Made by a program: the position numbers and the translations under genes. A stretch of 64,000 nucleotides of DNA from Nocardioides mangrovicus (GTDB lineage Bacteria; Actinomycetota; Actinomycetes; Propionibacteriales; Nocardioidaceae), in NCBI RefSeq assembly GCF_003674065.1, contig NZ_RDBE01000002.1, positions 31,829 to 95,828 on the forward strand, written 5' to 3'. How positions within the stretch are numbered: the stretch's first letter is position 1; each line of letters opens with the position of its first letter. The notes beneath the pieces were generated by a model. That model was not told where the DNA came from. It searched no databases and was given only the letters and a program-made list of their open reading frames with translations. This document shows positions 23,712 to 34,617 of the stretch, one piece after another.

Positions 23712-24490
23712 CTCGTCTCCTCGGGGGGCCTGCGCTTGGCGCCGCGGTCGCGACGAGCGTCGTAGAGGTAGGACTCCCCGGCACCCGCGGACTCGTCGCC
23801 GCTCGCCAGGGCGCGGCCGACCAGGATCACCGCGGCCTGGCGCAGGCCGGCCGCCTCGACGGCGTCGGCGATGTCGGCCAGCGTGCCGGTGATCACGAGC
23901 TCGCCGGGCTGGGAGGCGCGGAAGACGACCATCGCCGGGCAGTCGGCGCCGTAGTGGGGGGCGAGCTCCTCGGCCAGAGCACGCGTACGCGTGACGGCCA
24001 GGTGCAGCACCAGGGTGGCCCGCGTGGCGGCGAACGCGGCCAGCGACTCGGTCTCGGGCATCTTGGTCGAGCGGGCCTGCACCCGGGTGAGCACCACCGA
24101 CTGCGCCACCAGCGGCACGGTCAGCTCGCGGCCGACCAGCGCGGCCGCGGCGGCGTACGCGGGGACGCCGGGGGTGACGTCCCAGTCGATGCCGAGGGCG
24201 TCGAGGCGCGCGGTCTGCTCGTGGAGCGCCGAGTAGACCGACGGGTCGCCGCTGGTGAGCCGCACGACGTCGTGGGCCGCGGCGTGCGCCTCGGCGATGG
24301 TGGCGACGATCTGGTCGAGGTCGAGGCCCTGGGTGTCGACCAGCCGGGCCTGCGGGCAGTGGCCGAGGACGGCGTCGTCGAGATAGGTGCCGGGGTAGAG
24401 CACGGTGCCGGCAGCGCCCAGCAGCGCGGCCGCGCGCAACGTGAGTAGGTCGGCCGCGCCGGGGCCGGCACCGACGAAGTGGACGGTCAT
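23708..24490 (-). CDS. cobM: Precorrin-4 C11-methyltransferase
   Basis: Encodes 260 residues. It is a tetrapyrrole methylase with VHFVGAGPGAADLLTLRAA at the N-terminus, TSGDPSVYSALHEQ, TPGVPAYAAAAALVGRELTVPLVAQSVVLTR and LVLHLAVTR. CobM methylates C-11 of precorrin-4 with SAM to give precorrin-5. Its ATG overlaps the cobL stop, so translation is coupled. A ~15-residue Arg/Lys-rich tail follows the domain. Confidence 0.95.
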   Translation of the reverse strand: MTVHFVGAGPGAADLLTLRAAALLGAAGTVLYPGTYLDDAVLGHCPQARLVDTQGLDLDQIVATIAEAHAAAHDVVRLTSGDPSVYSALHEQTARLDALGIDWDVTPGVPAYAAAAALVGRELTVPLVAQSVVLTRVQARSTKMPETESLAAFAATRATLVLHLAVTRTRALAEELAPHYGADCPAMVVFRASQPGELVITGTLADIADAVEAAGLRQAAVILVGRALASGDESAGAGESYLYDARRDRGAKRRPPEETR

Positions 24491-25683
24491 CGCTCCCAGC
24501 TCCGCTCCAGGCTCCACTGCGTCACCGTGCGCGCCGGCGTCCACCCGGTGTAGGACCCGAGCGGCGCCGCGTGCTCCACCGAGAGCCGGGTGAGCTCGCC
24601 GCCGTGCTCGGCGTGGAGCTCGGCGAGCAGCCGCTCGGTCTCCAGCGTCACGCCGTGAACCACGATCCGCCGCGCGCCCAGGCACGCGTCCACCACCTCA
24701 CGGGTCGCGCCACCGCCGACGAAGACCGCGTCGGGGGTGGGTAGTCCATCGAGGGCCTCCGGCGCGGTGCCGGTGACCACGCGCAGCACCGGGACGCCGA
24801 GGCGTGCGGCGTTGCGGCCGATGCGATCGGCTCGCTCGGGGTCGGCCTCCACCGCGACCGCGCGGCAGCTCGGGTGCGCGCGCAGCCACTCGATGCCCAC
24901 GGACCCCGCCCCCGCGCCGACGTCCCACAACAGCTGTCCGGGCATCGGCGCGAGCCGGGCCAGGGCGCTGGCCCGCACGTCGCGCTTGGTCAGCTGGCCG
25001 TCGTGCTCGTAGGCGGCGTCGGGGAGGCCTGCGGCGCCGAAACTCCACACTTGCGCAGTTGTGCCAACCTCAACCGCCACAACGTTCAATCTCGGCACCT
25101 CTGGCCACTCTGAGAACCGCAAGTGTGGAGTTTTGGCGATCCGGGACTCGCCGGCCGACCCGAGGTCGGCGAGCACCGTGACGACGCTGTCGCCGGCGCT
25201 CGCGTCCTGCAGGATCCGGGCCACCTCGGCCGGGGTGGTCTCGTCGGCCGAGAGCACGAGGATCCGGCGGCCGGGGGCGAGCTCGCGGGGCAGGGTGCGG
25301 TGGTCGCGCAGCACCACCGTCGAGTCGGTCGACCACCCCAGCCGCGCGCAGGCCAGCGCCACCGACGAGACCGCCGGGTGCACCGTCACCCGGTCGGCGC
25401 CGAGCAGCTCGACCAGCGTCGTGCCGACGCCGTGCAGCATCGGGTCGCCGCTGGCCAGGGCCACCACGCGGCGGCCGGCGTGCTCGGCCAGCAGCGCCGG
25501 CAGTCCCTCGCGCAGCGGGGAGGGCCACGGCACCCGGACCTGCCCGCCCTCCTGCAGCAGACCGAGCTGCCGGCTGCTGCCGATCAGCACGTCCGCGCGG
25601 ACGATCGCCTCGCGCGCCACCTCCGGCACGCTCGACCAGCCTTCGGCGCCGATGCCGACGACGGTCACGAGGGGCTCGGGCAC
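24487..25683 (-). CDS. cobL: Precorrin-6Y C5,15-methyltransferase (decarboxylating)
   Basis: Encodes 398 residues with two domains: CbiE-like methylase (VTVVGIGAEGWSSV, ALASGDPMLHGVGTTL) and CbiT-like methylase from about residue 225 (HDGQLTKRDVRASALARLAP, LLWDVGAGAGSVGIEWLRAHP). It methylates C-5 and C-15 and removes the C-12 acetate carboxylate. I use GTG 25683; a second GTG six codons later is possible. The segment coded by 25036-25137, between the domains, has unusually low GC, rare codons and inverted-repeat edges, yet keeps the family strand LNVVAVEV. See the separate repeat entry. Confidence 0.93.
   Translation of the reverse strand: MPEPLVTVVGIGAEGWSSVPEVAREAIVRADVLIGSSRQLGLLQEGGQVRVPWPSPLREGLPALLAEHAGRRVVALASGDPMLHGVGTTLVELLGADRVTVHPAVSSVALACARLGWSTDSTVVLRDHRTLPRELAPGRRILVLSADETTPAEVARILQDASAGDSVVTVLADLGSAGESRIAKTPHLRFSEWPEVPRLNVVAVEVGTTAQVWSFGAAGLPDAAYEHDGQLTKRDVRASALARLAPMPGQLLWDVGAGAGSVGIEWLRAHPSCRAVAVEADPERADRIGRNAARLGVPVLRVVTGTAPEALDGLPTPDAVFVGGGATREVVDACLGARRIVVHGVTLETERLLAELHAEHGGELTRLSVEHAAPLGSYTGWTPARTVTQWSLERSWER
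25036..25137. repeat. Palindrome-bounded low-GC segment inside cobL (element 1)
   Basis: Left arm 25036-25055 and right arm 25118-25137 are inverted copies matching at 19 of 20 bases (right arm reads CGCAAGTGTGGAGTTTTGGC). The 62 bases between are clearly lower in GC than the gene, with codons such as AGA, TCA, GTT, ACA and ACT. The segment is 102 bases, a multiple of three, and stays open. Bases 25036-25064 match 33899-33927 of the cobD element (opposite strand) at 26 of 29 positions. Confidence 0.7.
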
Positions 25684-26257: not shown

Positions 26258-26365
26258 CGCGGCACGAGAGCCCGGGGAAGCCGGTGGAAGTCCGGCACAG
26301 GCCCGCTGCGGTGACACGCGGAACGCGTGAAGTCCGAAGACCGGCCTCGTCGCCAGCTGTCCACT
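26258..26365 (+). promoter_or_regulatory. Cobalamin riboswitch upstream of the chlID-cobO-cobB operon
   Basis: The conserved aptamer core is visible: GGGGAAGCCGGTGGAAGTCC at 26274-26293, then GGCACAGGCCCGC, the GGTGACACGC region and GAAGTCCGAAGACCGGCCT. These correspond to the AdoCbl aptamer core GCCGGTG-A-TCCGG-C-GGYCCCGC and the 3' GAAG-CAGGAGACC strand. A hairpin GCCAG/CTGGC at 26352-26368 lies just before the GGGAG ribosome site of chlID and could sequester it or form the loop contact. Cobalamin binding would reduce expression of the seven-gene operon downstream. Confidence 0.93.
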
Positions 26366-26387: not shown

Positions 26388-28445
26388 ATGCCGAAGCAGT
26401 ACCCCTTCAGCGCCGTCGTCGGCTCCGACGACATGGCGCTGGCCCTTGTGCTCACCACGATCTCGCCCGAGGTCGGCGGCGTGCTGGTGCGCGGCGAGAA
26501 GGGCACGGCCAAGTCGACGATCGTGCGCGCGCTCGCGGCCGTGCTGCCGCCGATCACGGTCGTCGCCGGCGACCGGTTCTCCAGCGCTCCGGGCGAGACC
26601 TCGCCCGACGGCCTGCGCGCCGACGCCCCGACCGAGGTCCGTCCGGTGCGGCTGGTCGAGCTGCCGGTGGGCGCCACCGAGGACCGGGTGCTCGGCTCGC
26701 TGCACCTCGAGCGCGCGCTGTCGGAGGGCAAGGCCGAGTACGAGCCCGGACTGCTGGCCCGCGCGCACCGCGGGATCCTCTACGTCGACGAGGTCAACCT
26801 GCTCCACGACCACCTCGTCGACCTGCTGCTCGACGCCGCCGCGATGGGCCGCTCGACCGTGGAGCGCGACGGCGTCTCCGTGGAGCACGCGGCCCGGTTC
26901 GTGCTGGTGGGCACCATGAACCCCGAGGAGGGCGAGCTGCGCCCGCAGCTGCTCGACCGGTTCGGCCTCACCGTCGAGGTGGCCGCACCGCGCGACCCCG
27001 ACGCCCGCGTGGAGGTGGTCCGCCGCCGGCTGGCCTTCGACGCCGACCCCGAGGCGTTCACCGCCCGCTTCGCCGACGCCGAGCAGGCGCTGACCGACCG
27101 GATCCAGGCGGCCCAGAAGCGCGTCGCCGAGGTCGAGCTGGGCGAAGCCGCGCTGCGCCAGATCGCCGAGGTCTGCGCGGCGTTCGACGTCGACGGCATG
27201 CGCGCCGACATCGTCACCGCCCGTGCCGCCGTCGCCCACGCTGCGTGGCAGGAGCGCACCGCCGTCACCACCGACGACGTCCGCGTGGCCGCCCGGCTCG
27301 CCCTCCCGCACCGCCGCCGCCGCAACCCCTTCGACGCCCCCGGTCTCGACGAGGACCTGCTCGACGACGTCCTCGGCAATGACCCCGAGCCGGACCCCGA
27401 CCCGGACCCCGACCCGGATCCCGACCCCCAGCCGCCGTCGCCCGGGTCCGGCGAGGGCAGTGACTCTGGGGACTCTGGGGACTCTGGGGACTCTGGGGAC
27501 TCTGGTGACTCCGGGGATGCGCCAACTGCGCACGTGCGCACCGGGCACGAGGAAACGGCCGGAAACGACGCGCCACCTTCGCACGTGCGCGATGGGCGCA
27601 CCCCCGACGACGCCACCACCGACACCAACGTCGCCACGATGGACACCCCCTACCGCCCCAAGCTCTTCACCGTCCGCGGCACCGGGGCCGGGGAGGCCGG
27701 TCGCCGCTCGCGTGCGGTGACCGAGACCGGGCGTCGGGTCGGCTCGTCGGCCGGCGCGCACGGCAGCATCGACCTGACCGAGACGATCCGGGCGGCCGCC
27801 GCCTTCCAGCAGACGCGCGGCCGCACGACCGGGCCGCTGCGGTTCCGTCCCAGCGACCTACGGCTCGCCGAGCGCGAGGGCCAGGAGTCGAACCTGGTGC
27901 TGTTCTGCGTCGACGCCTCGGGGTCGATGGCGGCGAGGCGGCGGATGGAGGCGGTGAAGACCGCGATCCTCAGCCTGCTGCTCGACGCCTACCAGCGGCG
28001 CGACAAGGTCGGCCTGGTCACCTTCCGTGGCCAGCAGGCCGACCTCGCGCTGCCACCGACGCACTCCGTCGACGTCGCCGCCCGGCGGCTGGCCGAGCTG
28101 CCCGCGGGCGGGAGGACGCCGCTGGCCGAGGGGCTGCTCGAGGCGCACCGCGTGCTGGGTCTGGAGCGGGTGCGCGACCCGCGGCGGCGGCCGCTGCTGG
28201 TGGTGGTCACCGACGGCCGCGCCACGCACGGCCGCGACGCCGTGCCGCGCTCCCTGCGCGCCGCCGGACTGCTGCGGGAGGCCGGCGTCGCCTCGCTCGT
28301 CGTGGACTGCGAGGCCGGCGCGATGCGACTCGGTCTGGCCCGCGGGCTGGCCGAGCAGCTGCTGGCCGAGCACGTGCCCGTCGGCGAGATCAGCGCCACC
28401 GCCCTCACCCGGGCGGTACAGGAGAGGGGTCAAGGTGCCGCCTGA
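26388..28445 (+). CDS. Fused ChlI/ChlD-type cobaltochelatase subunit (AAA+ and VWA domains)
   Basis: Encodes 685 residues. The N-terminal AAA+ domain (~1-330) has VRGEKGTAKSTIVRALAAVLP, a Walker B at GILYVDEVNLLHDHL and LVGTMNPEEGELRPQLLDRFGL. A flexible linker (~330-450) contains Asp-Pro and Asp-Ser-Gly repeats. The C-terminal VWA domain has a MIDAS motif, VDASGSMAARR. In actinobacteria such proteins replace CobS and CobT as the ATPase partner of CobN for cobalt insertion into hydrogenobyrinate diamide. It is the first gene after a cobalamin riboswitch. The linker DNA holds repeats listed separately. Confidence 0.92.
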   Translation: MPKQYPFSAVVGSDDMALALVLTTISPEVGGVLVRGEKGTAKSTIVRALAAVLPPITVVAGDRFSSAPGETSPDGLRADAPTEVRPVRLVELPVGATEDRVLGSLHLERALSEGKAEYEPGLLARAHRGILYVDEVNLLHDHLVDLLLDAAAMGRSTVERDGVSVEHAARFVLVGTMNPEEGELRPQLLDRFGLTVEVAAPRDPDARVEVVRRRLAFDADPEAFTARFADAEQALTDRIQAAQKRVAEVELGEAALRQIAEVCAAFDVDGMRADIVTARAAVAHAAWQERTAVTTDDVRVAARLALPHRRRRNPFDAPGLDEDLLDDVLGNDPEPDPDPDPDPDPDPQPPSPGSGEGSDSGDSGDSGDSGDSGDSGDAPTAHVRTGHEETAGNDAPPSHVRDGRTPDDATTDTNVATMDTPYRPKLFTVRGTGAGEAGRRSRAVTETGRRVGSSAGAHGSIDLTETIRAAAAFQQTRGRTTGPLRFRPSDLRLAEREGQESNLVLFCVDASGSMAARRRMEAVKTAILSLLLDAYQRRDKVGLVTFRGQQADLALPPTHSVDVAARRLAELPAGGRTPLAEGLLEAHRVLGLERVRDPRRRPLLVVVTDGRATHGRDAVPRSLRAAGLLREAGVASLVVDCEAGAMRLGLARGLAEQLLAEHVPVGEISATALTRAVQERGQGAA
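27462..27515 (+). repeat. 9-bp tandem repeat coding Asp-Ser-Gly
   Basis: Four perfect copies of GACTCTGGG at 27462-27497 and two degenerate copies to 27515, in frame inside the chlID linker. They give six Asp-Ser-Gly units and follow a Asp-Pro repeat coded by 27387-27427. The TCT codon is rare in this gene. Copy number is likely to vary between strains by slippage, changing the linker length only. Confidence 0.9.
27519..27590. repeat. Direct repeat with palindromic core in chlID linker (possible element 2)
   Basis: Two copies at 27519-27539 and 27570-27590, 51 bases apart, agree at 19 of 21 positions. Each has the core CGCACGTGCG; the first contains the perfect 14-bp palindrome TGCGCACGTGCGCA. 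They code the repeated peptides DAPTAHVRTG and DAPPSHVRDG. The reverse complement of copy 1 (GCACGTGCGCAGTTGGCG) resembles the GCACTTGCGCAGTT core of the cobL and cobD elements, so this could be a degenerate relative. Confidence 0.5.
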
Positions 28446-33699: not shown

Positions 33700-34617
33700 A
33701 TGAGATGGCTGGGACTGCTGCTCGGCTTCCTCGCCGACCGGGTGTGCGGCGATCCTGCCCGATGGCACCCGGTGGCCGGTTTCGGGTGGCTGGCCGGGCG
33801 GCTGGAGCGGGTGCTGTACGCCGACTCCCGACGCGCCGGCTGCACACTTGCGTGCACTCTCGTCACGCTATGTGCCCTCGTGGGGCGTTCGTTCGAGCGC
33901 AGAACTGCGCAAGTGCGGGGTTTCGGCGCCGTCGGCACCGCAGCCGCCACCTGGGTGGTGCTCGGGGGCCGGTCGCTGGAGCGCGAGGCGCTGGCGGTGG
34001 CCGAGCTGCTCGAGGCAGACGACCTGCCGGCCGCCCGGCAGCGGCTCACCCACCTGGTCGGGCGCGACACCAGTCGGCTCGACGAGGCCGAGGTCGCCCG
34101 CGCCGTGGTGGAGTCGGTGGCCGAGAACACCTCCGACGCCGTGGTGGCGCCGCTGGTGTGGGGCGCGCTGCTCGGCGTGCCCGGGCTGCTGGCCTACCGC
34201 GCCGCGAACACCCTCGACGCGATGGTGGGTCACCGTACCGAGCGCTACCGCGAGTTCGGCTGGGCCTCGGCGCGGCTCGACGACGTGCTCAACCTGCCGG
34301 GCTCCCGCCTCACGGCGACCCTCGTGGTGCTGCTCGGCGACGACCCCCGGGGAGCGTGGCGGGCGTGGCGTCGCGACGCCCGCCTCCACCCGAGCCCGAA
34401 CGCCGGGCCGGTCGAGGCCGCCTTCGCCGGGGCGCTCGGCGTGCGGCTGGGCGGCCGCAACGTCTACGCCAGCGGCGTGGAGGACCGCGCCGTGCTCGGC
34501 GACGGCCGCGCGCCCGCGCGCGAGGACGTCCGGCGGGCGACGGCCCTGGCGTGGCGGGTGGACGTCGCCGCGGTGCTCACGTGCGCAGCCATCGCAGCAC
34601 GGCGTCGACGTCGCTGA
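33700..34617 (+). CDS. cobD: Cobalamin biosynthesis protein CobD (adenosylcobinamide-phosphate synthase)
   Basis: Encodes 305 residues, a membrane protein. It opens [36 protein letters not shown] and continues [38 protein letters not shown] and [28 protein letters not shown], the strongest family motifs. It attaches the aminopropanol(-phosphate) linker to adenosylcobyric acid. Bases 33835-33927 form an unusual low-GC palindrome-bounded stretch coding [18 protein letters not shown] and neighbours. The last 41 bases overlap the convergent cobK. Confidence 0.94.
33835..33927. repeat. Palindrome-bounded low-GC segment inside cobD (element 3)
   Basis: The segment is 93 bases, a multiple of three. 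The left side carries GCACACTTGCG (33842-33852) and the right side GCGCAAGTGCGGGGTTTCGG (33907-33926), inverted relative to each other. The interior uses codons rare in the flanks (CTT, ACT, CTA, TGT, CGT, AGA, CAA). Bases 33899-33927 match element 1 in cobL on the other strand at 26 of 29 positions, which shows common origin or a shared DNA-level constraint. Confidence 0.7.

Follow-up and report, generated by a model that had tools for sequence, protein, structure and literature searches.

Three repeat copies in a cobalamin region

The window analysed here, a stretch of 64 kb, contains a cobalamin region in which three copies of a short palindromic repeat lie within 9 kb, each of them inside a gene. 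One sits in a reverse-strand gene that we take, following an earlier note on this DNA, to be cobL, another in cobD, and a third in a chelatase-like gene, within its linker. The features are as follows.

24487 to 25683, reverse strand: cobL (CbiE-CbiT fusion), the GTG start at 25683 being an assumption
25036 to 25055, forward strand: cobL repeat, left arm GCCGAAACTCCACACTTGCG
25056 to 25063, forward strand: additional left-side repeat DNA of the cobL copy, CAGTTGTG, type B-like as judged by eye
25064 to 25117, reverse strand: resident cobL code between the arms, encoding peptide FSEWPEVPRLNVVAVEV and including the predicted strand 200-205, with low GC3
25118 to 25137, reverse strand: cobL repeat, right arm (reverse complement GCCAAAACTCCACACTTGCG)
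27519 to 27598, forward strand: third repeat copy, of type C, within the linker region of the chelatase-like gene at 26388-28445 (E 0.024)
33833 to 33852, forward strand: cobD repeat, left arm, C-type, GCGCCGGCTGCACACTTGCG
33853 to 33906, forward strand: cobD middle, mostly resident code, its final bases resembling repeat DNA
33907 to 33928, reverse strand: cobD repeat, right arm, A/B-type

The two cobL arms at 25036-25055 and 25118-25137 match as an inverted repeat at 19 of 20 positions, which confirms what the earlier note had claimed, and they are the only such pair in the 64-kb window (at least 19/20, with a spacer below 120 nt). The element measures 102 nt and starts in codon phase 0. The low-GC interior and unusual codons described in that note were likewise found: GC is 0.56 in the 62-nt interior and 0.75 in the measured part of the gene (about 300 surrounding codons), and 11 of the 17 codons lying wholly inside the interior end in G or C, whereas elsewhere in the gene 347 of 361 codons do so (Fisher P 9e-5). 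The lowest-GC3 21-codon windows of cobL fall in codons 183-217, and GC3 over a 37-codon region is 0.62, compared with 0.73-1.00 in 26 measurable relatives (33 were tried and seven had no anchor match; two of the 26, L041 and L122, come from one genome, leaving 25 distinct). It had been suggested that relatives might show the same codons and GC without any arms; those measured do not have the low GC3.

The peptide FSEWPEVPRLNVVAVEV encoded between the arms scores 24.9 against the profile of its relatives, with shuffled versions at -21.6 +/- 6.0 and none of 20,000 scoring as well, in agreement with the earlier proposal that the interior is native CobL. In this test, for cobL and cobD alike, the query is part of the alignment and the shuffles are scored without realignment, so the result leans towards the query. 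The arm-encoded peptides are random-like against the same profile (AKTPHLR, with four of its seven columns scorable, P 0.51; GTTAQVWSFGA, P 0.55). Loop lengths vary naturally among CobL proteins, and no unit-sized length difference was seen among 51 aligned rows, made up of 22 (L038-L059) of 80 loci and 29 of a second set of 30 whose thirtieth member is the gene itself, with L041 and L122 again from one genome; 25 of the 80 loci had entered alignment A3. With a native strand between the arms and no such difference in length, the claim that this is not a simple insertion holds. Even the nearest CobL relatives share about 67% identity, too little for the ancestral DNA to be read. In a predicted model of CobL (mean pLDDT 85, pTM 0.56) the arm-encoded segments AKTPHLR (183-189) and GTTAQVWSFG (207-216) flank the strand at 200-205; residues 183-184 end a predicted strand, the other arm-encoded residues are loop, and 212-216 is the sole segment with a pLDDT below 50. 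This modelled loop placement would fit, rather than prove, a tolerance of new sequence.

The cobD copy shows a similar layout. Its 16-residue interior peptide scores 1.6, with shuffled versions at -12.4 +/- 4.1 (P 0.001), while the arm peptides are random-like (P 0.41 and 0.71) and the flanks, taken as controls, score 26.0 and 20.5, far above the interior. As judged from these profile scores the cobD interior is native-like, yet clearly more altered than its surroundings. Across the copy (33833-33928) the protein aligns ungapped with 13 of 17 relatives by manual count from the alignment, and no unit-sized length difference was found against the 17 CobD relatives. Codons ending in G or C number 11 of 15 in the interior and 251 of 271 in the rest of the gene (P 0.03). 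Since the arms are of two types, C on the left and A/B on the right, neither is a simple copy of the other, which makes an origin by simple fold-back less likely. The type C copy in the chelatase-like gene lies in a low-complexity linker of 121 residues, the equivalent linker spanning 90-143 residues in 10 relatives. Tandem repeats resembling GACTCTGGG (GDSGDSGDSGD, 27464-27517) directly precede this copy, and a cobalamin riboswitch (RF00174, 43 bits, 26275-26342) lies upstream of the gene, which starts at 26388.

A dispersed palindromic repeat family

The repeat phenomenon extends beyond cobL. We found a dispersed palindromic family of about 50 copies of near fixed length in this genome, comprising type A units of 83-84 nt, type B units of 92-96 nt and type C units of about 81 nt, which bears out the earlier suggestion that the arms are element-like; the possibility that no genomic copy exists beyond cobD falls with the many further copies. 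The arm 14-mer AAACTCCACACTTG has 31 matches in the genome at one mismatch or fewer and its reversed control has none, and 30 of these 31 matches lie inside paired short units, the exception at C2:572871 being chance-like. Type A is represented by 26 model loci (22 of 84 nt and four of 83 nt) plus one more 83-nt copy at C1:737075, type B by six copies besides those in cobL and cobD, and type C by 15 places (manual count). The models R1 and R2, built without the cobL and cobD copies, both recover the cobL copy (E 2.9e-7 and 1.6e-8, respectively); that in cobD is recovered by R1 (E 7.5e-4) and weakly by R2 (E 1.3). Two further model matches, C1:405225 and C1:227894, are ordinary coding sequence and were rejected as family copies.

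The cobL arms differ from the common arm form by zero and one mismatch. Repeat homology extends 8 nt inward on the left (CAGTTGTG), so that the native cobL interior covers approximately 25064-25117. The distance between cores is 62 nt in cobL, 55 nt in cobD and 42-55 nt in 32 other copies, the cobL spacing thus exceeding every other measured copy by 7 nt. Interiors were family-like in nine other copies tested (three of the 26 type A and all six type B), where none or one of 100 shuffles scored equally. Those of the cobL and cobD cores are not family-like (38 and 290 of 300 shuffles, respectively), and adding the eight extra left bases makes the cobL interior mildly so (14 of 300). Pairwise comparison of the 22 type A copies that measure 84 nt gives mean identities of 0.83-0.84 for the arms, 0.81 for the centre box and 0.38-0.52 for the spacers. 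Because a recent neutral family would be expected to diverge evenly, we infer that the copies are constrained, or that only copies with intact arms multiply. Similar to MITEs, the units (80-102 nt) have terminal inverted repeats and no space for a protein of their own; target-site duplications were not seen by eye in the flanks of the copies. Type A and type C units also adjoin as a mosaic (C19:165138-165337, C19:973189-973371 and C3:592015-592199), and by manual count seven of the 15 type C places have a type A unit no more than about 110 nt away, for example C19:165138-165221 and 165257-165337. This arrangement resembles that of BIMEs.

Most copies sit behind genes. Of 33 A/B copies (26 type A, six type B and cobL, a set that excludes the C1:737075 copy, cobD and type C, the last checked for open frames only), convergent genes flank 18, tandem genes 12 and divergent genes one, and two are inside genes (the cobL copy and one in an MFS permease); genes were called here by a simple home-made GC-frame rule. 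Of the 31 intergenic copies, 25 are no more than 35 nt from a stop codon (manual count from tables). The permease copy (C23:1711-1805, locus L196) is type B, in frame, and has a family-like interior, and it sits in a variable loop that by manual count is shorter in 16 of 18 relatives, all of which is compatible with plain insertion there. The same loop in relatives L248 and L263 carries other repeat-like stretches (GSSTGSEG..., VEPVETP, EPVEIKP), which suggests that it may tolerate several element families.

Outside this genome the family is next to absent from what was searched. This genome has 34 occurrences of the exact core palindrome CACTTGCG-N38..64-CGCAAGTG; none of 340 further genomes from the taxonomic family contains it, and in a class-wide sample three of another 392 genomes have one occurrence each. 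Model R1 at E <= 1e-4 found no match in 23 further genomes from the genus. A plasmid source was not supported, with two short plasmid matches at E 8, nor was a viral one, where at least 120 viral stretches matched and three among the matches listed had a weak partial arm.

Origin of the cobL and cobD copies

Family-like arms, native interiors unlike those of the family and the absence of any unit-sized length change are best read together as family arms placed around resident code, in both cobL and cobD. The arms keep the inverted order of the family and roughly its spacing, which suggests that they arrived as a pair. Insertion of a whole unit would leave no native strand between the arms and independent arrival of each arm is unlikely, which leaves paired overwriting; we therefore infer that a pair of arms took the place of loop code on both sides of a coding segment that was already resident. 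On balance we think it probable that the cobL copy belongs to a palindromic family confined, among the genomes searched, to this one, that its arms flank resident cobL, and that they arrived paired, probably through a template switch. The most ordinary mechanism that we can name for such overwriting would be a stalled replication fork at which the growing strand moves onto a hairpin copy. The fork would switch template to the hairpin copy and then back, and in doing so would overwrite about equal lengths of loop code with arms. The change might be tolerated because the arm-encoded segments are mostly loop-like and of low confidence in the protein model. The low GC3 of the interiors is unaccounted for by arm overwriting alone; AT-rich codons could have been produced either by error-prone synthesis during the overwriting or by selection on the DNA. 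A more general version, which we consider less likely than not, is that a miniature palindromic element can spread by writing its arms alone around resident DNA, and in this way can colonise genes whose proteins are neither lengthened nor broken.

Selection on the arms themselves, as binding sites or hairpins in the B12 cluster serving mRNA control, silencing or chromosome organisation, is an unlikely competitor. It would account for three copies in 9 kb that are all inside genes of the cobalamin region, for AT-enriched interior codons in both cobL and cobD, and for the conservation of type A arms and centre box (0.81-0.84) over spacers (0.38-0.52), as constraint predicts. The mRNA hairpin of cobL is also strong (z -5.3); however, that of cobD is ordinary (z -1.5, with 14 of 200 shuffles folding equally well), so a shared RNA role in both genes is unsupported. 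The hairpin selection raised in the earlier note thus keeps the cobL fold on its side and stays unproven. An Rfam scan of four loci at the gathering threshold gave no match in the element, the cobalamin riboswitch outside it being the only match, and the core is absent from other family genomes, which means that such a site is not conserved in the B12 genes of relatives. Moreover, 31 of the 33 A/B copies are intergenic, most of them at 3' ends. Judging from this position, the gene-end copies may act as terminators or 3'-end stabilisers, and we take those in cobL and cobD to be passengers, not regulators.

Rickettsia palindromic elements are in-frame palindromic elements inserted as a unit, and insertion of this kind, with native loops trimmed later to normal length, is slightly less plausible again than selected arms. 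The MFS permease copy in the same genome is compatible with plain insertion, and CobL loop lengths do differ among relatives. However, an inserted unit would not straddle a native strand with its arms, let alone in two genes; 13 of 17 relatives align with cobD free of gaps; and the cobL arms, with zero and one mismatches, leave little time for any trimming if they are not themselves under selection. The earlier note had also considered an element inserted twice around the conserved strand. Two independent single-arm insertions would produce the correct final layout, but we consider them improbable: a single arm match of 31 is unpaired, and that one chance-like, and the inverted order with near-family spacing would be needed twice, in cobL and in cobD. 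By our reading, clean insertion also implies ancestral loops shorter than those of the aligned relatives. Local gene conversion with a divergent cobL of lower GC as donor would explain interior codons that depart from the usage of the gene, but the low-GC3 stretch coincides with the arms (codons 183-217) and the core palindrome is missing from other family genomes, making this very improbable. Least credible of all is a recombinase-driven invertible switch, which would take a coding segment flanked by inverted arms just as observed here, but flipping gives a stop in cobL and an unrelated peptide in cobD, and most copies are intergenic with nothing evident to switch.

Known palindromic repeats and what the copies may mean

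Paired overwriting by family arms, our preferred reading, can be set beside several described systems. In Pseudomonas fluorescens SBW25, REPINs (REP doublets) have a fixed distance between arms, 71 bp for GI (PMC3116915). Similar to these, the units here consist of an inverted pair of conserved arms and a spacer, are hairpin-forming, lie in extragenic DNA and keep their arms at a fixed distance, with a core gap of 42-55 nt (PMC3116915). Inverted pairs at fixed spacing and a dispersed, mostly extragenic distribution (31 of 33 A/B copies intergenic) are thus shared. The differences are that only one of the 31 arm matches is unpaired, that some middles are native code, and that no Y1/RAYT match was found: a search with the RAYT model (Y1_Tnp, PF01797) gave no match at E <= 0.001 in this genome, the control search being positive in five of 14 known genomes. 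A RAYT-driven REPIN was rejected on this result.

REPs of the GTAG and CGTC types are described just behind the 3' ends of convergent or tandem genes, with some intragenic ones described as inserts, and the CGTC type is said there to have no dedicated transposase (PMC3733652). The placement behind stop codons here follows that published pattern (PMC3733652), but by eye the ends of the A, B and C copies have neither tag. The family therefore looks like REPINs in being paired, near fixed in length and placed behind stop codons, and departs from published types in the RAYT and in the GTAG/CGTC tag. The same source describes the Rickettsia elements as palindromic and in frame in genes that likely encode working proteins (PMC3733652); unlike these, the cobL and cobD interiors are resident and the proteins are not lengthened, whereas the MFS copy is compatible with insertion of that type.

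Coding palindromes in Nematomorpha mitochondria are inverted repeats in genes that still encode conserved protein (PMC6649704). There both arms encode conserved residues (PMC6649704), whereas here the arms encode unconserved residues, the middle is conserved and the arms come from a dispersed family. Multi-base rewriting of coding DNA by template switching between the arms of an inverted repeat has been described (PMC8604942); in that account the template is the neighbouring arm, whereas in the present case a dispersed repeat would be needed as template. Among open-licence papers, covered mostly by titles and the openings of abstracts, we recognised no description of the family or of arm-only overwriting, and these searches gave no example of a dispersed palindrome with arms substituted for code on either side of a native core.

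For small palindromic repeats that multiply without an evident transposase, arms that replace loop code around native segments in two B12 genes, from a family found in a single genome, offer a testable footprint of the process, a near length-neutral replacement by paired arms, and they show a route by which repeat DNA can supply segments of protein.
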